Source: Stenotrophomonas nitritireducens
GTDB lineage: Bacteria > Pseudomonadota > Gammaproteobacteria > Xanthomonadales > Xanthomonadaceae
Reading direction: 5' to 3'
DNA: 64,000 bases
Assembly: GCF_001431425.1 (NCBI RefSeq)
Contig: NZ_LDJG01000002.1
Coordinates: 1 to 64,000 of the forward strand
The notes beneath the pieces were generated by a model. That model saw only the letters and a program-made list of their open reading frames with translations, was not told the origin of the DNA and did not search any database. The position numbers and the translations under genes are program-made. Positions 8,282 to 51,989 of the stretch are shown here, piece by piece. Numbering within the stretch: position 1 is the first letter of the stretch; each line of letters starts with the position of its first letter.

Positions 8282-8374
8282 GTACCCGGCACCGGCGCCC
8301 TCGCGGCACCGGTGCCGGCGCAGGAAAGGCAGTACGCACCATCTCCCTACCCCCACGGGGAGCACTCATGCCAC

Positions 8375-8401: not shown

Positions 8402-8429
8402 CCGTATTCCCGAAATCTGGAGAATCCCG

Positions 8430-25700: not shown

Positions 25701-28700
25701 GTCCACGCCCGAGGTGTGCACGATCACCACCATCGGCGGCGGGCTGACCTTCATCACCGCCGGCACCTGCATCATCAACGCCGACCAGGCCGGCAACGGC
25801 AGTTATCTCCCGGCGACCAAGGTCACCCGCAGCTTTACTGTCAATGCGGTGACTCCGGGCGCGCCGACCATCGGCACCGCCACGGTGACCGGCGTCGGTA
25901 CGGCGTCGGTGGTCTTCACCGCGCCGGCCTTCAATGGCGGCGACCCGGCGCTCAGCTACAGCGTGACGCCGAACCCGGCAGTGACGGGCGGGCCGTTCAC
26001 CGGCACCACCTCACCGATCACGGTCAGCGGCCTGGATGCCGGCATCAGCTACACCTTCACCGTGACCGCGACCAACAGTATCGGCACCGGCTCGCCATCG
26101 GCCGCGTCCATTGCCGTCACCACGGCGGCCACCCAGGTGATCACTTTCGCCAACCCGGGCGCACAGGCCTTCGGCACCACGCCGACACTGACCGCTACCG
26201 CCGAATCCGGGCTGGCGGTGAGCTTCACTTCGTCCACGGCCGGTGTGTGCAGCATCAGCAGCACGGGCCTGCTGGCTTTCCACACCACCGGTGGCTGCAC
26301 CATCAACGCCGACCAGGCCGGTGATGCCAGCCACCAGCCGGCACCGCGGGTTTCCCGGACGTTCGCGGTCAACGCGGTGGCGCCGGGCGCACCGGGCATC
26401 GGCACGGCCATCCTGACTGGCGTCGGCCAGGCGGCGGTGGCTTTCACCGAGCCGTCGTTCAATGGCGGTGCGGCGGTCACGGGCTACATCCTGACGCCGA
26501 GCCCGGCGGTAGCGGGCGGGCCGTTCACCGGCACCACCTCGCCGATCACGGTCAATGGACTGACCCCGGGTACGCGCTACACCTTCACCGTGACCGCGAC
26601 CAACGGCGTGGGCACCGGTGCGGCGTCGGCCGCATCCAATGCCGTCACCACGGCGGCGACGCAGGTGATCAGCTTCGCCAACCCGGGCGCACAGGCCTTC
26701 GGCACGACGCCGACGCTGGTGGCCTCGGTGGACTCTGGCCTGAGCGTGGCCTTCAGCTCTGCCACGCCGGGCGTGTGCAGTGTTGGCGGTGATGGCGCGC
26801 TGACCTTCGCCACGGTGGGCGATTGCACGATTCATGCGGATCAGGCGGGCAACGCCGGCACCTTGCCGGCCCCGCGGGTGAGCCAGACGTTTGCGGTCAA
26901 GGCGGTGGTGCCGGCGGCGCCGGTCATCGGCGCGGCGGCCATGACCGGTGCGGACAGCGTGCAGGTGAGCTTCGCCGCGCCGGGCTTCACCGGCGGCGCA
27001 GTGGTTACCGGCTACAGCGTGATCTCGAACCCGGGCAACATCACCGCCAGTGGCAGCGGCTCGCCGATCACGGTCAACGGGCTGACCCCGGGCACGCGCT
27101 ACACCTTCACCGTAACCGCGACCAACGGTGCAGGCACCAGCCCGGCGTCGGCACCTTCCAACGCGGTGACCACGGCGGCGACGCAGGCGATCACCTTCGC
27201 CAACCCGGGCGCACAGGCCTTCGGCACCACGCCGACGCTGGTGGCCTCGGTGGACTCTGGCCTGAGCGTGGCCTTCAGCTCTGCCACGCCGGGCGTGTGC
27301 AGCGTTGGCGGTGATGGCGCGCTGACCTTCGCCACGGTGGGCGATTGCACGATTCATGCGGATCAGGCGGGCAACGCCGGCACCTTGCCGGCCCCGCGGG
27401 TGAGCCAGACGTTTGCGGTCAAGGCGGTGGTGCCGGCGGCGCCGGTCATCGGCGCGGCGGCCATGACCGGTGCGGACAGCGTGCAGGTGAGCTTCGCCGC
27501 GCCGGGCTTCACCGGCGGCGCAGTGGTTACCGGCTACAGCGTGATCTCGAACCCGGGCAACATCACCGCCAGTGGCAGCGGCTCGCCGATCACGGTCAAC
27601 GGGCTGACCCCGGGTACGCGCTACACCTTCACCGTGACCGCGACCAACGGCGTGGGCACCGGTGCGGCGTCGGCCGCATCCAATGCCGTCACCACGGCGG
27701 CGACGCAGGTGATCAGTTTCGCCAATCCGGGCGCACAGGCCTTCGGCACCACGCCGACGCTGGTGGCCTCGGTGGATTCGGGCCTGCCGCTGCGCTTCGA
27801 GGCATCCACGCCGTCTGTGTGTAACGTCACGGCCGCTGGCATGCTGGGTTTCGCCAGTGCCGGTACCTGCACGGTGACGGTGCACCAGGACGGCGATGCC
27901 AGTCACTTGCCGGCTTCGCGGGCGCAGTCGTTCAGCGTGACCGCGGTGGTGGCCGCGTCGCCGGTGCCGGGCGAGGTGACGGTGGTCGGTTCGGGCGAGG
28001 TGGCGGTGCATTTCACCCCGTCCGCCGCTACCGGCGAGACCATCACCTACACGGTCACCGCGCAGCCGGGCGGCATTACCGCCAGCGGCACGGGCTCGCC
28101 GATCACGGTGCGCGGGCTGACCGATGGCGTGAGCTACACCTTCACCGTTGCCGCGTCCGGCCAGACCGGCGGCAGCAGCGCGCCGTCGGCGCCGTCGGCC
28201 CCGGTGGTGCCGCAGGTGCTGCAGACGGTGGCCTTCGACGAGGTCGGCCCGCAGCGCTTCGACCAGGTGCCGGTGTTGTCGGCGCGCGCCGACTCCGGAC
28301 TGCCGCTGGTGTTCAGTTCGTCCACGCAGGACGTGTGCACGGTGACCGCCGCTGGCCAGCTGGCCTTCGTACGGGCCGGCAGCTGCACCCTGGTGGTTGA
28401 GCAGGCCGGCGATGCCACCCATCGCCCGGCCTCGGCCACGCGCACGTTCCGGATCGAGCCGGTACCGCCGGGCGTGCCGGACATCCAGACGCTGACGCCG
28501 GTGGGTACCGGGCAGGTCAGCGTGGCGTTCACGCCGCCGGCGTTCACCGGTGGCGCGAGCATCGACGGTTACCGCGTCACCGCCACCCCGCAGGGCGCGG
28601 CGGCGCCGGCCCTGCGCACGATGAGCCTGCGTGCGGCCAGCACGCCGGGCGTGGTCACCGCCACCGGCAGCGGCTCGCCGATCCTGGTGCAGGGGCTGGC

Positions 28701-35378: not shown

Positions 35379-36581
35379 TCAGGGCGTGGCGCCGTCTTCG
35401 GCGACGCGGGCGAGAAGGGTGGCGGTGTCCTGGTCGAACACCGGCGCGGCGAACGGCGGCGGGCCGGGCGTGCGCCCGAACACGATCGGGCGGGTGATGC
35501 CACGGTAGCTGCCCAGCACCGGATGCGGCAGCGAAGCGACCATGTCCTCGGCCTGCACCTGCGGATGCTCGAACATGTCCTCGACCTTGCGCGCGGCCGC
35601 GCACGGCACGTCCTCGCCGAACAGCGCCTCCCACTCCAGCGCGCCGCGCGCGGCCAGCGCGGCGTGCAGCCGCGCCAGCAGTTCCTCCGAATGCGCCGCG
35701 CGCTTGCGCACGCTGTCGTAGCGCGGATCGGCGGCCAGCTCCGGCAGGCCGGTCTTCTCGCACAGCGCCTGCCAGAAATGCGGGGTGTTGGCCGAGATGT
35801 AGAGCCAGCCGTCGGCGGTCGGGTGGATGCCGGTAACGCCGCCCGAGCGCATGTCGCGGCCCACCGCCTCCGGTTCGCCCTCGGCCCAGATCATCCGCGC
35901 CGACTGCATGGTCAGCGCGCTGCGCAGCAGCGACACGCCGACGAACTGGCCCTCGCCGCTGCGCTCGCGCTCGTACAGCGCCGAGGACACGCCCGCGGCC
36001 ACCAGCGCGGCGGCGTAATAGTCCACCACCGAGCCGTAGAGGATCTCCGGCGCGCCGCCGGGCTTGCCCTGCATCGCGCACATGCCGGTCATGGTCTGCA
36101 GCACCTGGTCGTAGCCGGCCTTGTCGCGCAGCGGGCCGTTCTCGCCGTAACCGGTGACCGCGCAGTACACCAACCGCGGGTTGAGCCGCTGCAGGCTGTC
36201 GAAGTCGATGCCCAGCCGTGCCGGCACGCCGGGGCGGAAGTTGTGCACCAGCACGTCGGCCTCGCGCACCAGCCGCATCAGCACCGCGCGCTGGTCGGAC
36301 TGCTTCAGGTCCAGCACCACGCCGCGCTTGGAGCGGTTGACGCCGAGGAAGGCGCGGCTCTCCGCCTCCAGCGTGGACGGATACTTGCGCAGGTTGTCGC
36401 CGCCCGGCGGCTCCACCTTGATCACTTCCGCGCCCTGGTCGGCCAGCAGCGTGCAGCCGTACGGGCCGGCGATGTAGGCGCTCAGGTCGAGCACGCGCAC
36501 GCCGCCGAGCGGTCCGGCGGCGCCGTCGCGGCGGGCGATGTCGAAGGGAGAGGGGCTGTGGCTTCCTGACATGGGGTGCAC
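35379..36581 (-). CDS. CaiB/BaiF-type (class III) CoA-transferase
   Basis: 400 residues. '[20 protein letters not shown]' and '[20 protein letters not shown]' are the CoA-binding start of the family, and Asp158 in '[13 protein letters not shown]' is the residue that forms the glutamyl/aspartyl-CoA intermediate. Family members move CoA between carboxylic acids. The start at 36581 has 'aaggaat' upstream; Met4 is an alternative. The acid substrate is unknown. It lies 105 bp downstream of GH127 and just before tal, so it may or may not share the carbohydrate transcript. The only CoA-ester partner enzyme in the window is the CitE-like lyase at 49050. Confidence 0.9.
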
Positions 36582-36686: not shown

Positions 36687-38546
36687 TCAATCCACCGGCG
36701 CCAGCGACAGCCAGGTCAACCGCCAGGCGCCATCCCCGCGCCCGCCGCAGCGGTAGTAAGGCTCGAACACCAGCGGAGCGCGGCATTCCAGCTGCATCGT
36801 CACCGGTGCGCCTTCGCCCCGGTCCTCGCCGACCCGCAGCCACTGCGACGAATCGCCGGCCGGCAGCTTCAGCGTCTCCTCGGTCTTGTAGCCGTCGATC
36901 AGTCCGGTGGCGTAGACCAGCGGGCCGTGGGTGAGGGCGACGTATTCCCAGCGCAGCACTTCCTGCGCCACCGGCGAGCCGTCGGGCGCGCGCGATTCCT
37001 GCACGTTGATGTTGGCCGCGCGCTGCAGCTGCGGCTGCATCGGCAGCGCCACGTTGACGATGTCGCCGGCGCGCCACGGGCGGTGCAGCTGCACGAAGCC
37101 GTCTTCGCCGGGCTGCACCGGCACATCGACGCCATTGACCTGGATGCGCGCGTCCTCGGCCCAGGCCGGGATGCGCACGCCGATGCCGAAGGTGGCGCTG
37201 GTATCCGGCGTCACCCGCAGTGTGACCTGGCCATCGAACGGATAGCGCGTGTGCTGCTGCAGCGTCACCCTGCCGGCCTCGGCGTGGCGCAGGGAGGCTT
37301 GGCCTGCACCGTACAGGTTCACCCGCAGGCCGCCGTCGGCGGCGGTGCCGTAGGCGATCTGCGGCAGTTCCTCCACCGCCATCGCGCCGGAGGACTTGCA
37401 GCAACGCCAGTAAGTCGTGTGCACGCGCTTGCCGTTGGGGAAGGTGTAGTAGCACCAGTCCTCGCCATTGGGTGCCATCGCCGCCAGCAGGTCGTTGTAG
37501 GCGGTGCGTTCCAGCTCGTCGGCGTAGCGCGCGTGGCCGGTGATGGCCAGCAGTTCGCGGTTGAGCTGCATCCATGCCAGTACCGAGCAGGTTTCCACGT
37601 AGGCCTGCGGGAAGAAGGTGCGCGGTGCGTTGAACACTTCGCGCGAGCGATGCGCCACGCCGCCCCACGGGCCGCCGCCCAGGGTCAGGTGCTGGTTGCG
37701 GATGTTGTTCCACAGGTTGTCGATGGCCAGCTTGTAGTCGGCCTTGCCGGTGGCCTTGTACAGCTTGGCCAGACCCACAAGATTCCATGACAGCTGGTAG
37801 GCCTTGCCGGTAGCGATGAACGCCGCGTCCTCGTTGGCAATGCCCTTGTCGAGCAGGGCCAGGCGCGGGTTGGCGTTGGCCTGCTGCAGGATCTTCTCGG
37901 CCAGCGCCAGATAACGTGGCTCGCCGGTGACCAGGTACAGGTCGGCGGCCGGGTCCAGCAGCACCGTCGCCGACATGCCGTGGTGGTTGCCCAGGGTGGT
38001 GATGTCGATGCCCGATTCCAGCGCCTGCCAGCACAGGTCGGCGATGCGCCGCGCGGCCTGCAGGTAGCGGTCATCGCCCAATGCACGCCAGGTTTCGAGG
38101 AAGCCGAGGATCAGGTAGCTGTGGGTCCAGATGTCCCAGGTGCGCAGCGCCGGTTCGCCGTTCCAACTTTCGGGCTTGGGCGGCTGCGGCACGGTGAAGC
38201 GACGGTCGGCGGCATAGTTGCCGAGATAGCCATCGTCGTCCTGCTGGCTGATCAGCCAATCGGCGACGCGGCGGAGGTTGGCTTCCAGCTCGGGCTGGTT
38301 GCCCTGAGCCACCGCGCGCGCGGTCGCAGACAGCCACTTGCCGGCGTGCTCGCCGTACCAGTCGCCTTCCTGGTTCTGCTGCTTGTGCGCCTGGCCGAAG
38401 ATGCCGATCGACGGGCTGTGCTCATCGACGATGAAGTGGCTCAGGCGGCCGCTGCGGTTGGCCGCCAGCATCTGCCCGAACACGCCGTCCAGCTGTACCG
38501 CCGACGGCGCGATCAGCTGCTGACCACTGCTGATGAGCGCACTCAT
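36687..38546 (-). CDS. Glycoside hydrolase family 127, probable beta-L-arabinofuranosidase
   Basis: 619 residues with no signal peptide, so cytoplasmic. An alpha/alpha barrel (about 1-400) is followed by beta-sandwich domains. The zinc-thiolate active site of GH127 is complete: Glu318 and Cys320 in 'YVETCSVLAWMQLNREL' and Cys382-Cys383 in 'TYWRCCKSSG', matching Glu338, Cys340, Cys417 (nucleophile) and Cys418 of Bifidobacterium HypBA1. That enzyme frees L-arabinose from beta-arabinosyl hydroxyproline of plant extensins. The gene overlaps the upstream fusion-protein gene by 4 bp, so the two proteins are made together. Exact substrate remains to be shown; other GH127 members differ. Confidence 0.9.
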   Translation of the reverse strand: MSALISSGQQLIAPSAVQLDGVFGQMLAANRSGRLSHFIVDEHSPSIGIFGQAHKQQNQEGDWYGEHAGKWLSATARAVAQGNQPELEANLRRVADWLISQQDDDGYLGNYAADRRFTVPQPPKPESWNGEPALRTWDIWTHSYLILGFLETWRALGDDRYLQAARRIADLCWQALESGIDITTLGNHHGMSATVLLDPAADLYLVTGEPRYLALAEKILQQANANPRLALLDKGIANEDAAFIATGKAYQLSWNLVGLAKLYKATGKADYKLAIDNLWNNIRNQHLTLGGGPWGGVAHRSREVFNAPRTFFPQAYVETCSVLAWMQLNRELLAITGHARYADELERTAYNDLLAAMAPNGEDWCYYTFPNGKRVHTTYWRCCKSSGAMAVEELPQIAYGTAADGGLRVNLYGAGQASLRHAEAGRVTLQQHTRYPFDGQVTLRVTPDTSATFGIGVRIPAWAEDARIQVNGVDVPVQPGEDGFVQLHRPWRAGDIVNVALPMQPQLQRAANINVQESRAPDGSPVAQEVLRWEYVALTHGPLVYATGLIDGYKTEETLKLPAGDSSQWLRVGEDRGEGAPVTMQLECRAPLVFEPYYRCGGRGDGAWRLTWLSLAPVD

Positions 38547-40741
38547 GCCGCGTCCACCACGCAGCGGAAGCCGAGCATGCCGCTGCGGTCCTTGGCCGGC
38601 GCCATCAGCAGGTACTTGCCGTGCTGATCCAGGCGATAGGCCTGCGGGAAGTACCAGTGCGAGGTCTGCGGCTGGTAGCTGGAGCCACCGCGCAGGATCG
38701 CGGCGCGGGTGTGCGTATCGACGAACTCATCGGTCCACTGCCACACGTTGCCGACCAGGTCTTCGACGCCGAACGGGCTGGCGCCCTGCGGATGCGCATC
38801 GACATCGGCCGGTGCCAGCACGCGGCGGCCGCGGTTTACCTGCGGCACGCGGCTGGCGTCCCAGTCATTGCCCCACGGGTAGCTGCGGCCATCGCTGCCC
38901 TGCGCGGCGTACTGCCATTCCCATTCGTGCGGCAGGCGCTTGCCGGCCCACGCGGCGTAGGCGCGCGCGTCTTCCAGTGACACCCAGATCACCGGCTTGT
39001 TGTCCCAGCCGGCGCGCGGTGCGCCATCCACCCAATGGGCTAGGAAATTGATGTCATCGGCCGGGTGGTAGCCGGTGGCGTCGATGAAAGCCTTGAACTG
39101 CGTGTTGGTGACCGGGTGGCGATCGATGTGGAACGCCTGCATCTGCATCAGCTTGCGGTGATGGCGGCGCGGGCAGTCCTCCCACGGGAACTGCACGTCC
39201 TGGCCGGCCCAGTTGAAGCCTTCGATCTCGACACCGCCGACCGCGAATACGAACTCACCGGCCGGAATGGTGACCATGCCCTGCGGCGCGACAGTCTGCG
39301 CGGTGGTGGCGGGGATCTCGCGCAGCTGCTGCGGGATCGCCTTCCATGCGCCGGAGAAACTGTTGAGCGGCTGTTCGGCGCGCTTGGCGGCGGCGACCAG
39401 GAATGCATCAAGACCGTCGACCACGACACCCGGCTGCACGCTCAGCACCGCACCAAAGCCGCGCGCTTCCATCGGCAGTTCGATGATGGCCACGCCCTCA
39501 CGCACGGCCGGCGACAGCTCCACGCCGTGCCAGACATCGTAGTAACGGGTGCCGTCCACATGCGGCAGGCCGATCTGCTCGCCATTGACCGCGTATTCGT
39601 TGCGGTTGATGAAGGTGTGCAGGCACTGGCCATCGGCCGGGAACCGGCTGGCGAAGATGCCGCCCTGGTAGCAGACCTGGTAGGGCTCCCAGTCCATCGA
39701 CACGATCAGCTGCGGGAACTGGCGGTAGATCGCGGCGATGCGGCGCAGGGTTTCGCCGTCGCGCGCGGTGAACTGGTTCCAGATGCCCCAGATGTTCTCC
39801 CAGGCGTTGTAGCCGATGCCGTTGAAGAAGCAGTACTGCAGGTCGTGGTTGCGGTTCCGCCCCCAGCGGTTCTCGTAGTTGACCATGTGGCGCGGCTCCA
39901 GCCACTTCCACTTGGACACCGGCGGCACCGGGCCGTCGGGTGCCTTTTTGCCCCAGCTCTGCACGTTCCAGATCAGCTGTTCTTCCGAGCTGATGGTGGA
40001 CTCGGGCTGCACCACCACCGGGTTGCCCTTGGCATCGCAGGCATCGAAGAACGCACGCGGCACGCCGTTGAAGGTGTCGCCGTTGATGCCATCGGCACCG
40101 GTGGCCTTGATGATCTGCGCCATGCCGTCCCAGTGCGTCACGCCCGGGTCGCGGGTGCCGTGGTCCCACGGCTTGGCCGGCAGGAACACGCGCACGCCGC
40201 GCGCCTGGAAAGCCTTCACCGCGGCGGTCAGGCCTTCCAGGCCGCCCGGCAGCGTATGCGCCAGGTCGAACTGGTTGCGGTCGTCGATGCCGATGTTCGG
40301 ATAGATGTACCAGATCAGTACCGAGTCCAGCCCGCCGAAGCGTTCGATCAGGTCGTCCAGGTACTTGTCGACGGTGTACTGCGCGGTTTCCACATCGAAG
40401 AAATAGCGGTCCTCGACCATCATCTGCGCGTGTACGAAATTGCGCTGCGCCCACTGCAGTTCCGGCCGGCGGTAGTTCACGTCGGTATAGCCGATGCGCA
40501 CCAGATGCTCGCGGCGCCAGTCCTTGAGTTCGGTCAACCAGTCCGCGGCGCTGGCATTGGCGTCGATCATCCAGCTGCCGATGTCGGCGAACGGCCATGC
40601 AGGCGCCTTGCCCGGGGTGGGCAGATAACGGCCGGTGGTGACGTGCGAGAACCTGTACTCGGTGCGGATCGCCTCACGCCCGTAGTCGGCGGCTTCGTTG
40701 TCGTAATCGGGCGTGGTGTACGGCGTGGTCATGGCATTCAT
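38543..40741 (-). CDS. Glycosidase-like barrel fused to a SUMF1/FGE-type domain (atypical)
   Basis: 732 residues, no signal peptide. Residues about 25-360 look like a TIM-barrel glycosidase ('SVLIWYIYPNIGIDDRNQ', 'ADGINGDTFNGVPRAFF', 'VVVQPESTIS') with possible carboxylates at Asp222 and Glu247, followed by a beta-rich region (about 370-480). Residues 488-728 are a formylglycine-generating-enzyme fold ('MVTIPAGEFVFAVGG', 'HPVTNTQFKAF', 'GKRLPHEWEWQYAA', 'YPWGN', 'GNVWQWTDE', 'ILRGGSS'). The paired cysteines that bind copper in real FGE, expected after RGGS, are absent ('SSYQPQTSHWYFPQAYR'), and no sulfatase gene is near. So sulfatase maturation is unlikely; the domain may bind sugar. I cannot name a CAZy family for the barrel. 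It is coupled to GH127 and probably acts on the same glycan. Confidence 0.8.
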   Translation of the reverse strand: MNAMTTPYTTPDYDNEAADYGREAIRTEYRFSHVTTGRYLPTPGKAPAWPFADIGSWMIDANASAADWLTELKDWRREHLVRIGYTDVNYRRPELQWAQRNFVHAQMMVEDRYFFDVETAQYTVDKYLDDLIERFGGLDSVLIWYIYPNIGIDDRNQFDLAHTLPGGLEGLTAAVKAFQARGVRVFLPAKPWDHGTRDPGVTHWDGMAQIIKATGADGINGDTFNGVPRAFFDACDAKGNPVVVQPESTISSEEQLIWNVQSWGKKAPDGPVPPVSKWKWLEPRHMVNYENRWGRNRNHDLQYCFFNGIGYNAWENIWGIWNQFTARDGETLRRIAAIYRQFPQLIVSMDWEPYQVCYQGGIFASRFPADGQCLHTFINRNEYAVNGEQIGLPHVDGTRYYDVWHGVELSPAVREGVAIIELPMEARGFGAVLSVQPGVVVDGLDAFLVAAAKRAEQPLNSFSGAWKAIPQQLREIPATTAQTVAPQGMVTIPAGEFVFAVGGVEIEGFNWAGQDVQFPWEDCPRRHHRKLMQMQAFHIDRHPVTNTQFKAFIDATGYHPADDINFLAHWVDGAPRAGWDNKPVIWVSLEDARAYAAWAGKRLPHEWEWQYAAQGSDGRSYPWGNDWDASRVPQVNRGRRVLAPADVDAHPQGASPFGVEDLVGNVWQWTDEFVDTHTRAAILRGGSSYQPQTSHWYFPQAYRLDQHGKYLLMAPAKDRSGMLGFRCVVDAA

Positions 40742-40762: not shown

Positions 40763-41704
40763 TCAGAGCGCGCACCATGCCGCCAGCGCGGCATGGGCAT
40801 CGGCGCCGGGGACGCGGGTGGCATCGGCCAGCAGGACGGCGACCTCGGCGGTGTCCGGGATGCTGGACTGCGCGCCCAGGCGCGTGCAGGCCAGTGCGGA
40901 CGCGGCGCTGGCGGCGAGCAGCGCCTGCTGCAGCGCCTGCCCGCGTGCCAGCGCCGCCACCAGCGTGCCGCAGAACGTATCGCCGGCGGCGGTGGTGTCC
41001 ACCGGCGCGATGGAAAACGCCGGCTGCAGCAGGGTGCGGCCGGCCTCGCGCGCCAGGCAGCCGCGCGCGCCGAGGGTGACGATCACGCAGGGCACGTCCA
41101 GCCGCGCCAGGCCGGTGGCCAGGTCGGGCGGGTCGCCGGCGACGACGGCCAGTTCGCCTTCGTTGACGATCAGCATGTCCAGCTGCGCCAGCAGGGCATC
41201 GGGCAGCGCCTGCGCCGGCGCGGCGTTGAGCGCCACCTTGACCCCGGCCGCACGCGCGGCCCGTGCGTAGGCGAGCACGGTATCCAGCGGCGTTTCCATC
41301 TGCAGCAGCAGCCATTGCACGCCGTCCAGCGCGGGCAGGTGGCAGGGCCGCAGCGCCAGGTTGGCGCCGGGCGCGACGGTGATGGCGTTCTCGGCGTCGT
41401 CGGACAGGCAGACGAAGGCGGTGCCGGTCGGCAGCTGCGCATCGCGTATCGTGTGCAGCTGTACGCCGGCAGCGAGCAGCGAGGCTTCGATGGGCCTGGC
41501 GAAGTCATCATTGCCCAGCGCCAGCAGCATGCGCGTATCGGCGCCGCCGGCGCGCGCGCAGGCCACGGCCTGGTTGGCGCCCTTGCCGCCGGGGAAGGTG
41601 CGGAATTCGCGGCCGAGCACCGTCTCGCCCGGCGCCGGCACATGCGCCGCGCGCACCACGAAGTCGAGATTGGCCGAGCCGGCGACGAGGACGGTGCAAC
41701 TCAT
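40763..41704 (-). CDS. PfkB-family sugar kinase (ribokinase-like)
   Basis: 313 residues. N-terminal 'GSANLDFVVRAAHVPAPGET' and 'FPGGKGANQAVACARAG' are ribokinase signatures; the anion hole and catalytic base are in 'DTTAAGDTFCG', with Asp242. It phosphorylates a sugar, probably a pentose or nucleoside, with ATP. It overlaps the downstream end of the esterase/lactamase gene by 4 bp and lies 21 bp before the fusion-protein gene, so it is in one transcript with GH127. With transaldolase further on, it suggests entry of a released pentose into the pentose phosphate pathway. Confidence 0.9.
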   Translation of the reverse strand: MSCTVLVAGSANLDFVVRAAHVPAPGETVLGREFRTFPGGKGANQAVACARAGGADTRMLLALGNDDFARPIEASLLAAGVQLHTIRDAQLPTGTAFVCLSDDAENAITVAPGANLALRPCHLPALDGVQWLLLQMETPLDTVLAYARAARAAGVKVALNAAPAQALPDALLAQLDMLIVNEGELAVVAGDPPDLATGLARLDVPCVIVTLGARGCLAREAGRTLLQPAFSIAPVDTTAAGDTFCGTLVAALARGQALQQALLAASAASALACTRLGAQSSIPDTAEVAVLLADATRVPGADAHAALAAWCAL

Positions 41705-42981
41705 GGAATGGCCTGGTAGACGAGGTTGTAGAAGCGGGTCGAAGGCGACGCCAGCGGCCTGTCGCCGCCGGGCAGGTATTGCATCAGCAGGATCGCCACC
41801 AGCTTTTCGCGGCGGTCGACGGTGAAGTAGGTCGATGCCGCGCCGGACCAGCCGAACTGGCCGACGCTGCCCAGCCGCCCGCGTGCCGCCGGGTCGGTCA
41901 CCACGTAGCCGCCAAGCCCGAAGCCCTCGCCGTTGCCGGCGCTTGCGACCGCAGGTTCGAAGCCGCCGAGCTGGTCGCTCATCATCAGCTCGATGGTCTT
42001 GCGCGAGAGCAGCTGCCGGCCGCCACCGCGGCCGTCGTCGAGCAGCATGCGTGCGAACGCCAGGTAGTCCGCGGCCGTGGAGTACAGGCCGCCGGCACCG
42101 CTGTCGTAGCCTTTCAGGCGCACCCCAGGGGTGCGCGCGCTCGCCGTGCCGGCTAGGCGCAGGCTGCCGTCGTCGTTGCTGGTCGGCAGGTCGACCACGC
42201 GCCCGCGCTGCGCGGTGGGCACTTCGAAGCCGGTGTCGCGCATCGCCAGCGGGTCGAAGATGCGCTGCTGCAGGAACTGCGCGAAGGGTTGGCCGCCGAC
42301 CACCTCCACCACCCGCGCCAGCAGTTCGGTGTTGCTGCCTTCGTAATGGAAATGCGTGCCGGGCGCGTCGGCCAGCGGCAGCGCGGCCAGGCGTGCGGCC
42401 ACGTCCTGGAGCGAAATGGCGCTGTCGACATCGGCGGCGCTCAGCAGCCGGGTCGCGACTGGATGCGCGTCCGCGTCCGCGGCGAAACCGCTGGTATGGG
42501 TCAGCAGGTGGCGCAGGGTGATCGCCCGGGGCGACGGCGCCAGCTGCGGATGCCGCAGGTCGCCGCCCACCACGACCTGGCGGTCGGCGAAGGCGGGCAG
42601 GTAGCGTGACAGCGGATCGTCCAGCGACAGCCGGCCTTCCTCCATCAGCATCAGCACCGCCACCGAGGTCACCGGCTTGGTCATCGAATAGATGCGGAAG
42701 ATGCTGTCCTCGCGCATCGGCCGCGTGCGTGCGAGGTCGGCATGGCCCCGGCTGCCATGGAAGGCGCCGCGTCCATCGACTTCGACCACGGCGACCGCGC
42801 CCGGATAGCCATCGGCCGCGGTGGAGCGCTGCAGGAAATCGTCCAGCCGTTGCCAGCGGTCACCGGCCAGGGCGGAGGCGGGAACAAGCGCGCAGGCCAG
42901 CGTCGCCGCCAGCAGCCGGCACGCCGCCGAGCGCCCTGTGGGCGGCGGTGCGGTGACGGTCGTGGTCGCGGTTGGATGCAT
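41701..42981 (-). CDS. Exported class C beta-lactamase-fold hydrolase/esterase (EstB-like)
   Basis: 426 residues with a signal peptide ending near 'ASALAGDRW' (about residue 40). SxxK is Ser99-Met-Thr-Lys102 ('IYSMTKPVTSVAVL'), and the second catalytic Tyr213 lies in 'FHYEGSNTELLARV'; 'LLTHTSGF' and 'GWSGAASTYF' are typical of family VIII esterases and class C-like serine hydrolases. These often act as esterases rather than beta-lactamases. It appears to be the first gene of the minus-strand carbohydrate run. The upstream region has an inverted repeat (ggaaagcg 43029-43036 / cgctttcc 43053-43060), a possible operator. A role in removing acetyl or feruloyl groups from glycan is conceivable, inferred from context only. 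Confidence 0.85.
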   Translation of the reverse strand: MHPTATTTVTAPPPTGRSAACRLLAATLACALVPASALAGDRWQRLDDFLQRSTAADGYPGAVAVVEVDGRGAFHGSRGHADLARTRPMREDSIFRIYSMTKPVTSVAVLMLMEEGRLSLDDPLSRYLPAFADRQVVVGGDLRHPQLAPSPRAITLRHLLTHTSGFAADADAHPVATRLLSAADVDSAISLQDVAARLAALPLADAPGTHFHYEGSNTELLARVVEVVGGQPFAQFLQQRIFDPLAMRDTGFEVPTAQRGRVVDLPTSNDDGSLRLAGTASARTPGVRLKGYDSGAGGLYSTAADYLAFARMLLDDGRGGGRQLLSRKTIELMMSDQLGGFEPAVASAGNGEGFGLGGYVVTDPAARGRLGSVGQFGWSGAASTYFTVDRREKLVAILLMQYLPGGDRPLASPSTRFYNLVYQAIP

Positions 42982-43161
42982 GCTGCGGTCCCGTGTGGCC
43001 GGCCGTGCGGGCCGGACTGGATGGAGCGGGAAAGCGTCCGGCTGCCGGAGCGCGCTTTCCTTGGACCAGCCTAGACGGCGTACGCCCCGGCGCAAAGGGA
43101 CGCCCGCTTGCTTCAGGCCGCAGCGATACCGGGGTGATGCGGCCCGGGCCGGGCGGTCCTG

Positions 43162-43208: not shown

Positions 43209-45380
43209 TCAGAACGCGATGTTGTGCGAGAGCGAGATCACCCGTCCGCGACCGGCCATCCAGTCGTCGTTGGCGTTGCTGGCCTCGGAGGTGGTCAGGA
43301 TGTACTGCTTGTTCAGCAGGTTCTCCAGGCCGAGGGTCAGCTTGCCGAAGCGGCCGGTGTCGTAGTTCACGCTCAGGTCCAGCAGGGTGCGGCCGGAGGT
43401 GTGCTCGGCGCCGCTGCGGCCCTGGTTGATGGTGCGCGCGAGCAGGGTGGTCGCGCCCAGGTTCAGGTCGGCCTGCGGGGCGAAGCGCCAGAACAGGTTC
43501 ATGCCGATCTTGTCCGGGCTGACGTCGTTGGCGCCCATGCGCTTGTCCAGCGGCCCGTTCTTGGTGAACCAGGTCTTGCCGACGATGTGCGAGTACAGCG
43601 CGCTGAGCTTGAGGTCGCTGCTGAAATCGTAGCTGCCGGTCAGTTCGATGCCGTTGATGCGCACCGGGCCGCGGTTCATGACGAAGTCGCCGGTGACCGG
43701 GTCGGTGCTCAGCGAGACGCCGAGTTCGGAATAGCTGCGGTAGTACGAGGCGCTGGCCGAGGCGCTGCCGCCGCGCCAGTTGAAGCCGATTTCCTTGTTC
43801 TCCACGATGATCGGCTGCAGGTCGAGGATGCCGTCGACCTTGTAGCCGGGCTTGTTGATGTTGCGCAGCGGGATGCCGACGTTGGGCAGGCTGAAGCCTT
43901 CCGAGTACGAGGCATAGGCCGACAGGGCGTCGGTGAAGCGGTAGACCAGGCCGGCGTTGGGCAGGGTCTGGCGGTACTTCAGGGTGCCGCCTTCGACGAA
44001 CACGCGGTTGTTGTAGTACGTGGTGGTGTAGCTGTCGACATGCAGCTCGCCGCTCTCGCGGCGCACGCCGCCGCTCAGGGTGAGGTCGCCGATGTCCCAG
44101 CTCAGCTGCGTGTACGGCGCGCTGGAGCTGTACTCCATCGGCGGCACCCACACGCGGTTGGTCAGGGCCAGGCGCTGGTCGGTGGTGTCCTTCACCTGGT
44201 CCACGCCCACGCGCAGTTCCAGGCCGTCCACGTTGAACAGGCCGCCCCGGGTCCACGAGGTGCGGAAGCCCTTCTTGTCCGAATTGACTTCGGACTGGTC
44301 GATCAGCGTACCCAGCGGCGCGAGCAGCGGATCCTGGCGGTCCTTGCCGTCCTCGGCGGGGTAACGCATGTGCTGGTCGGCGCGGTACGCATCGGCCAGC
44401 AGGGTGCCGCCGAAGAAGTCCGAGTGGCTGTAGGACAGCGCCAGCTGGTTGAAGTCGTTGAACTCGGTCTTGGCGCCGAGCGGCGTGCCGTGCACCGAGG
44501 TCGAGGTGACGTTGTTGGCGCGGTCGCCGATCACGCCGGTGTAGTTGCCCTTGCCGGTCAGGTTGAAGCGGCTGACCGACACCTGCAGGCGCTGCATGTC
44601 CGCTTCGCCGAAGTTGGTGCCCAGCTTGAGGAACAGGTTCTTGGCTTCGGAGTCGTTGATCGTGCCCGAACCGCGCATGCCGATCTTGCGGCCCTTGCCG
44701 TCGTAGGCCATGCCGCGGTCGACGAAGGAGGTGGCCAGCAGCAGGTCGTAGGCGTCTTCCTTGTGGCCGAAGGTCACGCCGACCTTCCAGCCGTCGCTGT
44801 CGTCGCGGCCCTGGGTGCTCCAGCGGGTGTTGACGCTGGTGTGGCTGCCTTCTTCCGGGGTTTTGGAGATGTAGTTGATGATGCCGCCGGCCGCGCCGAC
44901 GCCCTCGGCCGCGGACGGGCCGTTGACCACTTCGATGCGGCCGATCACGCCCAGGTCGGTGAAGCTGCCGGCGCGGTTGGTCTCGCGCAGCGGCGAGGTC
45001 TGCGGGATGCCGTCGAACAGGCGCAGCGCGATGCGCCCGCGCAGGGTCTCGCCGGAGTTGGTCAGCGCCTGGGTCGATTCGGAATAGCCCGGGATGGTGC
45101 GCGAGAGCACCGCGGTGGCGTCTTCGGTCAGGCTCAGCGAGTTCTGCACTTCCTGCAGGCTGACGATGCTGACCGCGCCGGGAATGCGGTCCACGGCCTT
45201 GGGCGCGCGGGTGCCGGTGACGATCACGTTGTCCAGGTTGATCGCGTCCTGGTGGGCCGCGTGGGTGTTTGCGTCCTGCGCGGCCGCCGAGGCGGCGACC
45301 GTGGCGAGCACGAGGCCGACGGCCATCGACAGGTGCGTCCTGGCCGCTGCGCCGCTGCGTGCGCTGATTGGGTTGGTCAT
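43209..45380 (-). CDS. TonB-dependent siderophore-type receptor
   Basis: 723 residues. Signal peptide ends near 'ASAAAQDANT' (about residue 33). The plug has 'NLDNVIVTGTRAPKAVDRIP' and 'VEVVNGPSAAEGVGAAGGIINYISK'-like sequence (GRIEVVNGPSAAEG, GGIINYISKTPEEG). The barrel ends 'VISLSHNIAF', with the terminal Phe required for assembly. Size and plug resemble ferric-siderophore receptors (FhuE/FecA group), but the neighbouring LysR regulator, symporter and CitE-like lyase suggest an organic acid or its metal chelate as substrate. The start at 45380 follows 'ggggagagagaacc'. It has its own terminator and a 247-bp upstream region with motifs shared with citE. Confidence 0.88.
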   Translation of the reverse strand: MTNPISARSGAAARTHLSMAVGLVLATVAASAAAQDANTHAAHQDAINLDNVIVTGTRAPKAVDRIPGAVSIVSLQEVQNSLSLTEDATAVLSRTIPGYSESTQALTNSGETLRGRIALRLFDGIPQTSPLRETNRAGSFTDLGVIGRIEVVNGPSAAEGVGAAGGIINYISKTPEEGSHTSVNTRWSTQGRDDSDGWKVGVTFGHKEDAYDLLLATSFVDRGMAYDGKGRKIGMRGSGTINDSEAKNLFLKLGTNFGEADMQRLQVSVSRFNLTGKGNYTGVIGDRANNVTSTSVHGTPLGAKTEFNDFNQLALSYSHSDFFGGTLLADAYRADQHMRYPAEDGKDRQDPLLAPLGTLIDQSEVNSDKKGFRTSWTRGGLFNVDGLELRVGVDQVKDTTDQRLALTNRVWVPPMEYSSSAPYTQLSWDIGDLTLSGGVRRESGELHVDSYTTTYYNNRVFVEGGTLKYRQTLPNAGLVYRFTDALSAYASYSEGFSLPNVGIPLRNINKPGYKVDGILDLQPIIVENKEIGFNWRGGSASASASYYRSYSELGVSLSTDPVTGDFVMNRGPVRINGIELTGSYDFSSDLKLSALYSHIVGKTWFTKNGPLDKRMGANDVSPDKIGMNLFWRFAPQADLNLGATTLLARTINQGRSGAEHTSGRTLLDLSVNYDTGRFGKLTLGLENLLNKQYILTTSEASNANDDWMAGRGRVISLSHNIAF

Positions 45381-45540
45381 GGTTCTCTCTCCCCCCGAGT
45401 GGATTGCGGCGTCGACGACCGGGGAGCCGCGCGTGCCGGGAAACACCTCCGGGCTCGCGCCCGCCGTACCGGCGTGGATGGCGACTCTCTATGGAGTCTG
45501 GCCACGCTTTGGCCGGTCATGGGCGAAGACTAGGTGCGGC

Positions 45541-45627: not shown

Positions 45628-46509
45628 TCAGGCGCGGCCGGGCAACAGCGCCGCGCGGCTTTCTTCCAGCAGTGCGTTGACCTGGCGGATGCGTACGGAA
45701 GAACGCGACCAGACCATGCCGATGCGGCGCGGCTCGCAGGGTTCGGGCAGGGGAAGGCGCGCCACCGCCAGGCCTTCGGGCCATGGCCGTGCCCAGTCCG
45801 GCACCAGCGACACGCCCAGCCCGCGGTCCACCATCACCGCGATGGCGTTGAGCGCGTTGAGCTCGAAACGCTCGCGCGGGACGATGCCGACGCGGCGCAG
45901 GTATTCGTCGGCCTGGCGTCCGCCCCATTCGTGGCGGTCGTAGCGGATCAGCGGTTCGTCGCGCAGCAGCTCGTGCGGGTCGCGTCCGGCCAGCCGCGCC
46001 GGCGCCAGCACCACCATCGGTTCCTCGCGCAGCAGCTGCCAGTCGCAGGTCTTGGGCAGCGAGAACGGCGCCTGCAGCACCATCGCCGCGTCCAGGTCGC
46101 CGGCTTCCACCGCGCCGTAGAGATCGGCCGAATAGCCGGGACGGATGAACACGTTGATCTCGGGGAACTTGGCCACCATCCGCGCCAGGATGTCCGGCAC
46201 CAGCCCGGCCAGCGCGGTGGGGCACGCGCCGAGCCGCAGTTCGCCGGCCATGCCGCTCTCGTTGGCCACGCTGCGCAGGTCGGATACGTCGCGCAGCAGG
46301 TCGCGCGCGCGCTGCAGGATGCGCGCGCCCTCGGCGGTGACGCTGACCGTGCGTCCGGCGCGTGCGATCAGCGGTGCGCCGAGCTCGCGCTCCAGCGTGC
46401 GGATCTGCTGGGCGACCGCGGCCGGGGTGATGTGCAGCGAGCGTGCCGCCGCGGCCATCGAGCCGCGGTCGACCACGGTGACGAACGTGTTGAGGAACTG
46501 GGTTTCCAC
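45628..46509 (-). CDS. LysR-family transcriptional regulator
   Basis: 293 residues from GTG 46509. Winged helix-turn-helix at residues about 3-62 ('FLNTFVTVVDRGSMAAAARS', 'ITPAAVAQQIRTLERELGAP') and a periplasmic-binding-like effector domain (about 90-290). The GTG start puts the helix-turn-helix at the very N-terminus, as is normal in this family; an ATG at 46563 would add 18 unconserved residues. It lies between the receptor and the symporter-lyase pair, all on the minus strand, and an inverted repeat (atgccctc 46514-46521 / gagggcat 46544-46551) spans its leader, which may be an autoregulatory site. Confidence 0.9.
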   Translation of the reverse strand: METQFLNTFVTVVDRGSMAAAARSLHITPAAVAQQIRTLERELGAPLIARAGRTVSVTAEGARILQRARDLLRDVSDLRSVANESGMAGELRLGACPTALAGLVPDILARMVAKFPEINVFIRPGYSADLYGAVEAGDLDAAMVLQAPFSLPKTCDWQLLREEPMVVLAPARLAGRDPHELLRDEPLIRYDRHEWGGRQADEYLRRVGIVPRERFELNALNAIAVMVDRGLGVSLVPDWARPWPEGLAVARLPLPEPCEPRRIGMVWSRSSVRIRQVNALLEESRAALLPGRA

Positions 46510-46594
46510 GGCTATGCCCTCTGGGTCCGGGGCAAACCTACAGGAGGGCATGGCGCGCGGCATCCGACCAACGTCATGGTCGCGCGCGCGCCGT

Positions 46595-49024
46595 TCATGT
46601 GGCGTCCTGCCGGTAGATGGTCAGGCCCTTGAGCGAGCGCGCCGGCGCCGGGAAGCACAGGCTGGCCAGGTAGCCGATCACGATGCACAGCAGGATCGAG
46701 ATGCCCAGGTAGAAATACGGGTGCACCAGCTTGAACGACCAGGCCAGCAGGGTCAGCGCGATGCTGCCGGCGATGCCGATGGCCACGCCCGGCGAGTTGG
46801 CGCGGCGGGTGAACATGCCCAGCGTGTAGGCGCCGGCGAAACCACCGCCGAGCAGGCCGGCCAGTTCGATGGAGACGTCGAACAGCGAGTGGATGTCGTA
46901 GCGCGAAAGCACCAGCGCCAGGCCCATGCCGGCCAGGCCGACGACCACGGTCATGATCTCGGCGAAGCGCACGCTGCCGCGCTCGCTCGGGTTCTTCGCC
47001 AGCTTGTCGTAGAAGTCCACCGACAGCAGGGTCGCCACGCTGTTGATGATGCTCGACAGCGTGGACATGGCCGCGGCGAAGATGCCGGCGATGATCAGCC
47101 CGGTCACGCCCGGCGGCAGTTCGGCGGCGATGAACAGCGGGAAGGTCGCGTCGATCGGCAGCAGCGGGTCCAGCCGGCCCGGATTGTGCTTGTAGTACAT
47201 CCACAGCGCGGTGCCGATGCTGTAGAAGATGAAGCCGCCGGGAATCATGATCGCGGCGAAGATCCAGATCGAGCGCCCGGCCTCCTTGTCCGACTTGGTC
47301 GCCAGCGTGCGCTGCATCAGCACCTGGTCCTTGGGGAAGGTGAGCACCACGTCGAACACGACCAGGAAGATGAAGCCCCACACCGTGGCCTTGGTCAGGT
47401 CGAAGCTGAAGTCCAGCAGCTTGGTCTTGTGCTCGGCCATCGCCGCTTCGCGGATGCCGTCGAAGTCGGCGCCCAGCGTCCACACGATGAAGCCGATGGC
47501 GAAGATCGCCCCGCCCATCTTCACGAACACCTGCACGAAGTCGGTCCACACCACCGCGCGCATGCCGCCCATCACCGTGTAGATGATGGTGAACACGCCC
47601 ATGATCAGGATGCTCCAGACCACGTCGATGCCGGTGATGGTGGCGATCGCCAGCGCCGGCAGGAACAGGATCACGCTCAGCCGGCTGCCGATCTGCATGG
47701 CGATGGCCAGCGCGCTGGCGAGCATGCGGATGGCCGGGTGGAAGCGCGTCTCCAGGTAGGAGAATACGCTCATCAGGTCCAGCCGCCGCAGCAGCGGCAC
47801 GATCCACACCGCCACGAACATCAGGCCCAGTACCGCGACCAGGTTGTTGGTCAGGTACTGCCAGTTGGTCTCGTAGGCCTTGGCCGGGATGGCGATGAAG
47901 CTGATCGAACTGGTGTTGGTGGCGTACAGGCTGATGCCCGCGGCCCAGAACGGGATGCTGCGCCCGCCGACGAAGAACTCCGATTCGGAGGCGGTCTGGT
48001 CCTTCAGGTAGAAGTACACGCCGATGCCGATCATGCCGATTAGGTAGACGACGATCACGCTCCAGTCCAGCCAGCCGAGCAGGTGCTTGCCGCCCTGCAC
48101 TTCGGCGAAATGCACGCCGCCGTCGGCGCTGGTCCAGGCCAGGCCGTTGCCGCGCGCGGCGATGTCCAGCGGCGCCGGCGCGGCCGCGCCGGCCGGCGTG
48201 TCGAGCGTGGCCCAGGCGCTGGTGATGGTGTGGAAGGTGCGCAGGCCGGTACCGGTGGCATCGCGCACCAACATCAGCAGGTGCGCCTGGCCGAGCGCGC
48301 GCAGCGAGCCGGGCAGGATGTGTCCTCCAGGCGCCGGCGCCGCCTGCCAGCCGTTGTCCACGGTCCAGCGCCACAGCGCATCGCCCGCCACATCGCCGAG
48401 GACCGCGTACAGGCCGCCCTTCTGGCCCTGCAGCGCCACCAGCCGGCCGTCGGCAGGCCACACCGGCTGCGCCTGCCAGCCGCCGGCCTCGGCCGCCAGC
48501 GCGTGCCGATAGAGGTGCATCGAGCCATCGGCGGCGGTGCCGGCCACGTACAGCACGTCGCCGAGCGCGGCGGCCTGCGCGTTGCCCAGCGCCACCGGCA
48601 GGGCGAGCGTGCGTCCCAGCGCCAGCGTGTCGCCCTGCAGGCGTGCGCTCTGCAGGCGGTCGCTGCTGTCGGCGGCGGTGCCGCGCAGCAGCCAGGCCTG
48701 GCCTCCGGCGCTGACCGCCGTGCGGATGTCGGCGGTGGCACCGGCCGGCGCCAGCGCCAGCGGCTGCCAGGCCTTGCCGTCGCTGGTCAGTGTCCAAGCC
48801 TTGCCGGCGGACAGCGCGACGTCGTGACCGTCGACCGCCAGCAACCGTGGCTGCGCCGCATCGGCCGGCAGCGGTGCCAGGCTCCCGGATGTCACCGTGC
48901 TCAGGTTCTCCGCCGCCGCGGTGCCGCCCAGCGCCAGCAGTGCGAGCGTTGCCAGCAGGCGCAGGCCGCGCAGCGCGCGCCGGGGCAGGGGGAGGGCGGG
49001 CACAACGGCTGCGGGTATCGACAT
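46595..49024 (-). CDS. Sodium:solute symporter with N-terminal beta-propeller (Kelch-like) domain
   Basis: 809 residues. Signal peptide to about residue 38 ('LLALGGTAAAEN'), then about 270 residues of repeated short beta segments with Trp/Gly patterns ('GKAWQPLALAP', 'AGGWQAQPVW', 'DNGWQAAPAP') that look like a Kelch-type propeller exported to the periplasm. From about residue 315 follows a full sodium:solute symporter ('LDWSVIVVYLIGMIGIGVYF', 'SEFFVGGRSIPFWAAGISLY', 'GLIIAGIFAAAMSTLSS') with about 13 membrane segments. Such fusions are known near sialic-acid genes in other bacteria, but none of those enzymes is here. It lies 25 bp after the CitE-like gene in one transcript. The propeller may capture or process the substrate for transport. 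Confidence 0.88.
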   Translation of the reverse strand: MSIPAAVVPALPLPRRALRGLRLLATLALLALGGTAAAENLSTVTSGSLAPLPADAAQPRLLAVDGHDVALSAGKAWTLTSDGKAWQPLALAPAGATADIRTAVSAGGQAWLLRGTAADSSDRLQSARLQGDTLALGRTLALPVALGNAQAAALGDVLYVAGTAADGSMHLYRHALAAEAGGWQAQPVWPADGRLVALQGQKGGLYAVLGDVAGDALWRWTVDNGWQAAPAPGGHILPGSLRALGQAHLLMLVRDATGTGLRTFHTITSAWATLDTPAGAAAPAPLDIAARGNGLAWTSADGGVHFAEVQGGKHLLGWLDWSVIVVYLIGMIGIGVYFYLKDQTASESEFFVGGRSIPFWAAGISLYATNTSSISFIAIPAKAYETNWQYLTNNLVAVLGLMFVAVWIVPLLRRLDLMSVFSYLETRFHPAIRMLASALAIAMQIGSRLSVILFLPALAIATITGIDVVWSILIMGVFTIIYTVMGGMRAVVWTDFVQVFVKMGGAIFAIGFIVWTLGADFDGIREAAMAEHKTKLLDFSFDLTKATVWGFIFLVVFDVVLTFPKDQVLMQRTLATKSDKEAGRSIWIFAAIMIPGGFIFYSIGTALWMYYKHNPGRLDPLLPIDATFPLFIAAELPPGVTGLIIAGIFAAAMSTLSSIINSVATLLSVDFYDKLAKNPSERGSVRFAEIMTVVVGLAGMGLALVLSRYDIHSLFDVSIELAGLLGGGFAGAYTLGMFTRRANSPGVAIGIAGSIALTLLAWSFKLVHPYFYLGISILLCIVIGYLASLCFPAPARSLKGLTIYRQDAT

Positions 49025-49049: not shown

Positions 49050-49907
49050 TCAGGAAGCGGCGCGGGCCGCGGCGGCCAGCAGCGCTTCGGCGCGGCGCAG
49101 GAAGGGCAGGTCGATCATGCGGCCTTCGAACAGGAACGCGCCGCGTCCCTGGGCGGCCGCGACCGTGGCGGCGGCAACGATGCGGCGGGCTTCGGCGACC
49201 GCGGCATCGGATACGCCGAAAACGTCGTTGGCCAATCCCACCTGGCGCGGGTGGATGCAGCTCTTGCCGATGAAGCCCAGCCCGCGGGCCATGCTCGCCT
49301 CGGTGCGGAAGCCCTCGTCGTCGCCGACATCGGGGAAGGCGCCGTCGCAGGCGAACACGCCGGCTTCGGCCGCCGCCATGCGCAGCGCGAACAGCGTGGC
49401 GTGCACGTTGGCCGCGGTGCGGGCGATGCCGTTGGGCGCGAACAGGTCGCCCAGCCCGAGCTGCAGGCCGGCCACGCGCGGGTGCGCGGCGGCGAGCTCC
49501 GCGGCCTGGCGCAGGCCGCGCGGGGTCTCGATGTTGAGCAGCAGGCCGATCGGACGCACGACGCCGTTGTCGGCCTCGGCGCGTTCCAGCGCCGCGGCCG
49601 CTTCGCGCACCTGCGCCGCGGATTCGACCTTGGGGAGATTGAGCAGCCAGACCGAGGGCAGGGCGACCGCCGCCACGTCGGCGGCGAAGTGGGCGCTGCC
49701 GGTGCCGTTGCAGCGCACGATCAACCGCCGGCCGCTGGCGGCCACGTCGGCCCGGGAGAGGAACAGTCCGACCTGCACGCGCGCGGCGGCCTTGCCGGCT
49801 TCCGGCACCGAATCCTCCAGATCGAAGGACAGGACATCGGCCGCGCCGGCCATCGCCTTGTCGAACAGTTCCGGGCGTGCGCCGGGCACGAACAGCTTGC
49901 TACGCAT
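49050..49907 (-). CDS. HpcH/HpaI-CitE-like aldolase/lyase
   Basis: 285 residues. 'MRSKLFVPGARPELFDKAM' and 'DVLSFDLEDSVPEAGKAAAR' are the CitE-type start; 'LLLNIETPRGLRQAAE' and 'GLQLGLGDLFAPNG' carry the Glu and Asp that bind Mg2+. Stand-alone CitE proteins cleave citramalyl-CoA, malyl-CoA or similar 3-hydroxy-acyl-CoA thioesters. No citrate lyase CitF/CitD genes are near, so citrate lyase is ruled out. It heads the transcript that contains the propeller-symporter gene. A CoA-transferase to activate the acid is not adjacent (closest is at 35379). Confidence 0.87.
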   Translation of the reverse strand: MRSKLFVPGARPELFDKAMAGAADVLSFDLEDSVPEAGKAAARVQVGLFLSRADVAASGRRLIVRCNGTGSAHFAADVAAVALPSVWLLNLPKVESAAQVREAAAALERAEADNGVVRPIGLLLNIETPRGLRQAAELAAAHPRVAGLQLGLGDLFAPNGIARTAANVHATLFALRMAAAEAGVFACDGAFPDVGDDEGFRTEASMARGLGFIGKSCIHPRQVGLANDVFGVSDAAVAEARRIVAAATVAAAQGRGAFLFEGRMIDLPFLRRAEALLAAAARAAS

Positions 49908-51817: not shown

Positions 51818-51989
51818 AAACGGCGCGCATGGCCGCAGCGGCTGGCGCCGTGCGACGGGATCGGTGCCGGCGCCTCCCGGCAGTCATGCCGTCGTCGGCC
51901 CACATGCCGCGCCCGGACACTGCCACACTGCGCTGCCCGGCTGGTCCGGGGCGGCGTTCGCGCCGATCTTCCGTGCCTGCGAGGATTCC

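Follow-up and report, generated by a model that had tools for sequence, protein, structure and literature searches.

A predicted sugar-cleaving enzyme with an amylase-like fold and a cysteine-less SUMF1-fold domain in a conserved gene module of Stenotrophomonas nitritireducens

Positions 1 to 64,000 of contig NZ_LDJG01000002.1 of Stenotrophomonas nitritireducens, a soil-type bacterium, were analyzed, and this whole stretch of 64,000 nucleotides is called the window. The gene at 38543-40741 encodes a fusion protein, in which a glycosidase-like barrel is followed by a domain of the SUMF1, or formylglycine-generating enzyme (FGE), fold. The protein is predicted to be a sugar-cleaving enzyme with an amylase-like fold and a Cys-less SUMF1-fold domain, and it lies within a conserved gene module. 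The features of the fusion gene and of its partner gene, which encodes a protein of glycoside hydrolase (GH) family 127, are as follows.

38543..40741, minus strand: barrel-FGE fusion gene, 732 amino acids, ATG start (open reading frame list and translation)
39431..40543, minus strand: glycosidase half, residues about 67-437, predicted as an alpha-amylase-like barrel followed by a C-terminal beta domain and related to DUF6259-like proteins (AlphaFold2 models, VIA, hhalign)
40076..40078, minus strand: codon of Asp222 on barrel strand 4, proposed nucleophile (96/96 alignment rows, 17/17 DUF6259-like sequences; strand 218-225 in the whole model)
40001..40003, minus strand: codon of Glu247, the proposed acid/base, which ends barrel strand 5 (96/96 alignment rows, 17/17 DUF6259-like sequences; strand 243-247 in the whole model)
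38558..39283, minus strand: FGE-sulfatase (SUMF1-like) domain that lacks the Cys pair of FGE, residues 487-728 (PF03781, E 1.4e-36, profile positions 3-254 of 255)
38561..38692, minus strand: residues 684-727, spanning the position that the active-site loop has in FGE (here RGGSSYQPQTSHWYFPQAYR...GFRC; conservation blocks)
36687..38546, minus strand: GH127 protein with the ETC and CC family motifs (PF07944, E 3.1e-46, and PF20736)

A first-pass annotation, made from the sequence alone, had given the same open reading frame of 732 residues, and we place it on the minus strand. On the plus strand, frame 1 is interrupted by stops across 38543-40741. The third-position GC of the fusion gene is 0.88, similar to that of the neighbor genes, and together with the conservation across genomes this supports coding. 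By eye, no N-terminal signal peptide is apparent in the fusion protein. Signal-like N-termini were seen by eye in two distant members (L106 and L099), and the L106 copy has an additional N-terminal region.

The barrel half and its candidate catalytic residues

The first-pass annotation had described a glycosidase-like barrel. The barrel half of the query matched no Pfam model, and no credible match was found in 23 members of the family (best 0.11). Searches of the PDB sequences with phmmer and with profiles also gave no credible match to this half. The description is nevertheless supported by AlphaFold2 folds, by VIA structural comparison and by hhalign.

The AlphaFold2 model of the whole protein had a mean predicted local distance difference test score (pLDDT) of 72.8, and the barrel-only model had a pLDDT of 80.5 and a predicted template modeling score of 0.86. 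Both models consist of a barrel, with 7 of the 8 expected strands assigned, and a following beta domain. In VIA, GH13 enzymes led with the whole model (neopullulanase 1j0j, Z 19.1), and GH13 chains were at the top with the barrel-only model (1j0j, Z 18.3, 319 residues, 3.4 Å); families that do not appear in the VIA lists are not thereby excluded. In Foldseek, GH13 ranked first with the barrel-only model (1gvi, E 9.9e-11). With the whole model, FGE chains led, and the GH27-type chain 3a21 (E 7.0e-9) came next, marginally before the first GH13 chain, 1gvi (7.9e-9). The family labels of the GH27-type and related chains follow general usage or the chain titles. The barrel and domain C fold of GH13 was therefore recovered, in predicted models only, and the catalytic half is predicted to be an alpha-amylase (clan GH-H)-like barrel with domain C.

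The sequence relatives of this half lie elsewhere. The family profile was aligned by hhalign with a set of 17 DUF6259-like sequences, which come from the phylum of the Lacunisphaera locus L088. The alignment had Prob 99.9 and E 4.6e-33 over 359 columns, and covered residues 62-437. When 2 of the 17 sequences were scanned with Pfam, L107 scored 42.6 for DUF6259 (PF19773), above the cut-off of 28.7, and L109 scored 27.1, just below it. None of the 23 barrel-FGE family members reached the gathering cut-off of PF19773.

The pair Asp222/Glu247, which had been named as candidate acids, withstood the conservation check. Both residues are invariant in 96/96 rows of the alignment. The rows comprise the query and 95 loci; two of these loci, L001 and L002, represent the window, and near-identical species are included. 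The Spirosoma and Sphingopyxis copies are left out of the alignment, and at an 88% identity limit 53 representatives remain. Asp and Glu counterparts are present in 17/17 DUF6259-like sequences, and the Spirosoma relative (34% identity) also retains both residues. Together with the hhalign result, this suggests that the family is related to DUF6259, is fused to an FGE-like domain and has in Asp222 and Glu247 a plausible retaining dyad.

DUF6259, an uncharacterized family, shares the collinear barrel and C-terminal beta domain, with the strand-4 Asp and strand-5 Glu matched. However, no FGE domain was found in the two DUF6259-like proteins scanned, whereas the fusion family has one. GH13 enzymes such as neopullulanase (1j0j) share the predicted barrel and domain C, with acids on strands 4 and 5. 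In GH13, the strand-4 Asp is the nucleophile and has an Arg two residues before it, the strand-5 Glu is the acid/base, and a further Asp lies on strand 7. In contrast to GH13, the fusion protein has no detectable sequence relation to that family, has N-x-D at the place of R-x-D and carries an extra C-terminal FGE-fold domain. By eye, R-x-D occurs at the Asp in 5/17 DUF6259-like rows (L112-L116), whereas the fusion family has Asn220.

The SUMF1-fold domain

The C-terminal half contains a complete FGE fold, as had been proposed. In the structural comparison (VIA), FGE chains were recovered, with 6muj as the best (Z 16.8). A search of the PDB with a 20-row profile gave SUMF2 (1y4j) as the best match (E 2.6e-27), and single-sequence phmmer placed EgtB (4x8b) first.

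The segment after RGGS is SYQPQTSHWYFPQAYR and contains no Cys. The first-pass annotation had described this segment as Cys-free, which is correct, although its letters had one S too many. Cys was found in 0/96 rows at position 690 and in 0/96 rows at position 695, the positions of the human FGE cysteines as placed by hand against the human loop. Other Cys residues within 684-727 are at positions 716 (32 of 96 rows), 722 (27 rows) and 727 (96 rows). Thus, the Cys pair is missing from the homologues as well. This loss is, however, not distinctive, since it also occurs in SUMF2, the human paralogue of FGE without the catalytic cysteines, and in three other PF03781 proteins of the same genome, one of them EgtB-like, in which no Cys pair was seen by eye. 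As a separate observation, the EgtB-like FGE-fold protein (C22:40435-41100) is followed, by eye, by a methyltransferase-like frame, an ergothioneine-type pair.

Despite the loss of the Cys pair, the loop region is well kept. The blocks 681-700 and 701-720 have a mean conservation of 0.94 each, the highest among the 20-residue blocks of the protein, which points to a working site or an interface and not to decay. The family has its own conserved loop, SHWYF...KYLLMAP.KDR. SHWYF is invariant in 96/96 rows, and the distant Spirosoma copy has SEWYA.

As had been stated, no sulfatase gene is near: in a search confined to this genome, PF00884 matched four times, on contigs C2, C7, C23 and C34, and not on the contig of the window (C12). 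The scores of the EgtB, PvdO and SenA equivalog models are all under the cut-offs (68.2 of 360, 31.7 of 500 and 67.4 of 420 bits). No second Pfam domain able to carry the EgtB iron ligands was found in the fusion protein. An FGE or EgtB-type enzyme was therefore rejected, because the Cys pair is absent, the model scores are low and the contig is free of sulfatases.

The domain shares its fold with FGE (6muj and 1y1e; 27-32% identity in the structural alignment). In contrast to FGE, however, the fusion protein has no Cys pair, has no sulfatase on the contig and is joined to a barrel. SUMF2 (1y4j) has the same fold and likewise no catalytic Cys pair, and the fusion protein differs from it by the barrel and by its own loop. 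These results suggest that the SUMF1-fold domain at the C-terminus is conserved but does not act as an FGE. Sugar binding by this half, the role first suggested, is a guess.

The gene module

The fusion gene stop and the GH127 gene start overlap at 38543-38546 by 4 bp, as the first-pass annotation had claimed. The ETC and CC motifs, which are the catalytic Cys and Zn-ligand Cys/Glu motifs of GH127, are present in 78/78 GH127 homologues. The GH127 start lies between -14 and +4 bases from the fusion stop in 65 of the 78 loci with both genes, and the exact 4-bp overlap occurs in 38/78. In the others, GH127 is 2-3 kb downstream (8/78) or upstream (5/78). One of the 65, L083 (-11), is doubtful and probably an artefact, since its GH127 match was placed near 15.0 kb in the neighborhood comparison. 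The 2-3 kb insert between the two genes is found in L029, L032, L048, L057, L067, L070, L076 and L094, and probably in L083. In L048, the one scanned, it is a single protein with ThuA and cytochrome c (CBB3) domains, which suggests that some versions of the module include an oxidation step in the periplasm.

The partner shares PF07944, PF20736 and the ETC and CC motifs with beta-L-arabinofuranosidase and aceric acid hydrolase. However, it scores 140.3 of 950 bits with the aceric acid hydrolase model, and it forms a distinct subfamily: beyond 14 module copies, the next matches in 101 genomes have at most 37% identity.

A genome scan with one genome per species gave 406 matched stretches. The analysis continued with the best 80; the remaining 326 may match through the FGE half alone. 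These best 80 have at least 62% identity in the best segment, and all match over both halves, as a fusion. The nearest kept relative (L054) is 95% identical, and the hosts of the best 80 span Stenotrophomonas, Lysobacter, Roseateles and Opitutus. Together with two plasmids, the 80 stretches make up 82 loci, in which the neighbors of the fusion gene were counted. The neighbor genes are the following.

35379..36581, minus strand: class III CoA-transferase (PF02515, E 9.1e-121)
40763..41704, minus strand: PfkB kinase with ribokinase as its nearest match (6znx, E 5e-64; Pfam, NCBIfam and PDB profile)
41701..42987, minus strand: beta-lactamase-fold serine hydrolase, esterase-like, start approximate (PF00144, E 3.5e-72)
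43209..45446, minus strand: TonB-dependent receptor of the module (PF00593; 79/82 loci)
45628..46563, minus strand: LysR-type regulator (Pfam; 71/82 loci)
46595..49024, minus strand: sodium:solute symporter with a long N-terminal extension (PF00474; 74/82 loci)
49050..49907, minus strand: CitE/RipC-like C-C lyase of the HpcH/HpaI fold (PF03328; 67/82 loci)

The nearest NCBIfam models of the CoA-transferase are those for succinate/glutarate, mesaconate and oxalate, all below the cut-off. The nearest PDB relative of the CitE-like lyase is malyl-CoA lyase (4l9y, E 1.2e-44). About 320 N-terminal residues of the symporter have no Pfam match at E 0.001.

In the 82 loci, the CoA-transferase and the TonB receptor (43209) recur in 79 each, GH127 in 78, the symporter in 74, the kinase in 72, LysR in 71, and the serine hydrolase and the CitE-like lyase in 67 each. 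The counts are lower bounds because some loci end near the fusion gene, and those of the kinase and the CoA-transferase take in copies of only 30-38% identity. Transaldolase (16), PAP2 (7) and the other TonB receptor (1) are seldom beside the fusion gene.

Among 101 genomes, including the own genome, the same 14 hold barrel-FGE, GH127 (at least 63% identity) and the CoA-transferase (E at most 1e-100), and the genes are adjacent in each. Six further genomes have GH127 matches alone, with at most 37% identity. The CoA-transferase match of one genome (G012) has one internal TGA. Thus, the fusion gene belongs to an all-or-none module, and the functional link to GH127 that had been supposed gains support from these 14 genomes. 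The module is probably an undescribed sugar-breakdown pathway.

In the Verrucomicrobiota (Opitutus-type) loci L088-L091 and L093, barrel-FGE, GH127 and CitE have 56-63% identity to the window's copies, and the kinase and the CoA-transferase have 33-38% and 30-31%. Since the fusion, GH127 and the lyase are kept while the kinase and the CoA-transferase are far diverged, the functions seem to be needed together. In L088, the stretch at 7183-9895, which separates the kinase from barrel-FGE, holds a GH13-type protein, whose start looks signal-like by eye, and a frame that by eye is LacI-like.

Searches with the barrel only gave 14 matches in the 101 relatives and 4 in 398 phylum genomes, two of them among the 14. 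The open frames that hold these matches all have 729 codons or more, enough room to include the FGE half. When 288 genomes from the L088 phylum were searched with a profile, 15 gave matches; five were near-full-length barrels in frames of 742-927 codons, and the others were partial DUF6259-like matches.

Proposed function and alternatives

We consider, with a probability of roughly 60%, that the fusion protein is a retaining glycosidase of an undescribed family, within a pathway for an imported acid-bearing glycoside. Here, "undescribed" is judged against Pfam, PDB sequences and the open-licence literature, and is not a claim about CAZy. As judged by titles or the starts of abstracts, no paper on the barrel-FGE fusion was found among the matches listed from the open-licence full-text literature, and none on DUF6259 was found in the open-licence literature. 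The first-pass annotation had also suggested an undescribed type of glycosidase. This stands in outline, and the relation to DUF6259, the predicted alpha-amylase-like fold and the conserved catabolic module are additions to it.

We infer the catalysis, the retaining mechanism, the location, the role of the FGE-like half and the order of steps as follows. The TonB receptor and the sodium symporter would import a glycoside bearing an acid. In the cytoplasm, the barrel-FGE protein, acting as a retaining glycosidase with Asp222 as the nucleophile and Glu247 as the acid/base, and the co-translated GH127 would split the two kinds of glycosidic bonds of the glycoside. For the SUMF1-fold domain, the most likely role is to complete or cover the substrate site, or to assemble the oligomer. 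The ribokinase-like kinase may then phosphorylate the released sugar, and the CoA-transferase and the CitE-like lyase may break down the released hydroxy-acid by CoA activation and C-C cleavage. Tentatively, and with less confidence than in the glycosidase activity, we propose a new glycoside hydrolase family, in which the SUMF1-fold domain would be part of the sugar site of the amylase-like barrel. Its founding member would work alongside GH127, and the last steps of their undescribed pathway would be the CoA activation and C-C cleavage of a glycoside-borne hydroxy-acid.

As for the substrate, arabinosyl-hydroxyproline had been suggested first. This idea is weakened by the conserved companions, namely a ribokinase-like kinase, a class III CoA-transferase and a CitE-like lyase. 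L-Arabinosides are possible substrates; the module's support for them is the GH127 name alone, and no genome-wide search for arabinose genes was made. Other candidates considered are nucleoside, cofactor and malate/citramalate-type substrates.

Several observations weigh against the glycosidase reading. With 13 GH13 proteins, hhalign of the family profile gave Prob 1.6, and a PF00128 search of the own genome gave 0 matches. Membership of GH13 by sequence was therefore rejected, also because no Pfam match was found. At the place of the GH13 hallmark Arg, Asn220 is present in 96/96 rows, and no clear GH13-type third Asp was identified in the barrel. Chains of other families, GH27-type (3a21 and 3cc1) and GH30 (4fmv), are among the fold matches, and the non-catalytic amylase folds CD98/4F2hc fit the barrel model about equally well in Foldseek. 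In the whole model, residues 248-266, just past Glu247, have a pLDDT below 50, and one barrel strand is unassigned. The conserved FGE-like loop, residues 685-715, also has a pLDDT below 50, and its contact with the barrel is thus not visible. In a Spirosoma plasmid copy (34% identity over 91% of the length), the fusion is present without the module, in another neighborhood (GH28, oxidoreductases). Finally, it is only from family names that the released sugar and acid are guessed.

It is somewhat unlikely that the barrel is instead clan GH-D-like (GH27/GH31/GH36-type) or GH101-like, with the same strand-4 Asp nucleophile and another acid/base and specificity. Clan GH-D (GH27/31/36) is characterized by a strand-4 Asp and a strand-6 Asp, and the strand-6 region is poorly modeled in both AlphaFold2 models. 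GH-D-type chains are present among the fold matches: besides the marginal lead of 3a21 with the whole model, Foldseek with the barrel model placed 3cc1 at rank 3, 3a21 at rank 6 and 4ogz at rank 22, and VIA gave 9ayu at Z 15.2. However, GH13 chains top both VIA lists and rank first in Foldseek with the barrel model. Furthermore, the invariant strand-5 Glu247 fits GH-H, and the Asp that follows the strand-5 Glu in 17/17 DUF6259-like rows aligns, by eye, with Asn259 of the fusion protein.

The barrel might also be a phosphorylase, isomerase or transglycosylase acting on a small sugar acid, with GH127 alone hydrolyzing. The absence of an apparent signal sequence would suit this, and the Foldseek list includes enzymes of this kind with the GH13 fold, for example trehalose synthase (3zo9 and 5h2t) and GlgE (5lgw). 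We regard this as unlikely.

A second enzyme in the SUMF1-fold domain, an iron or copper oxidase acting on a sugar or another target, is improbable. Two plasmid relatives are annotated as SUMF1/EgtB/PvdO family nonheme iron enzyme, EgtB came first in phmmer, and the active-site-loop region is the best-conserved part of the protein; against this stand the absence of the FGE copper cysteines from all 96 rows, the EgtB and PvdO scores far under the cut-offs and the lack of a further Pfam domain for the EgtB iron ligands. A catalytically dead amylase fold, which merely binds or scaffolds GH127, would agree with the CD98/4F2hc matches and with the tight coupling to GH127 (overlap and co-occurrence), but is very unlikely because the two candidate acids do not vary in the 96 rows and are matched throughout the DUF6259-like relatives.

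If the glycosidase reading is true, the name SUMF1/EgtB/PvdO misleads and DUF6259 gains a function. Because the module is all-or-none, its substrate should be findable through growth and transcript tests.

Elsewhere in the window, a 2506-residue frame at 22723-30243 (plus strand) appears to encode a large adhesin-like protein of the cell surface. Eight of its stretches pass as fibronectin type III, and its C-terminus is an autotransporter beta-domain; there are long open frames on the opposite strand. At 51582-52994 (plus strand), a 470-residue frame matches the urea transporter model (PF03253) over residues 170-460.

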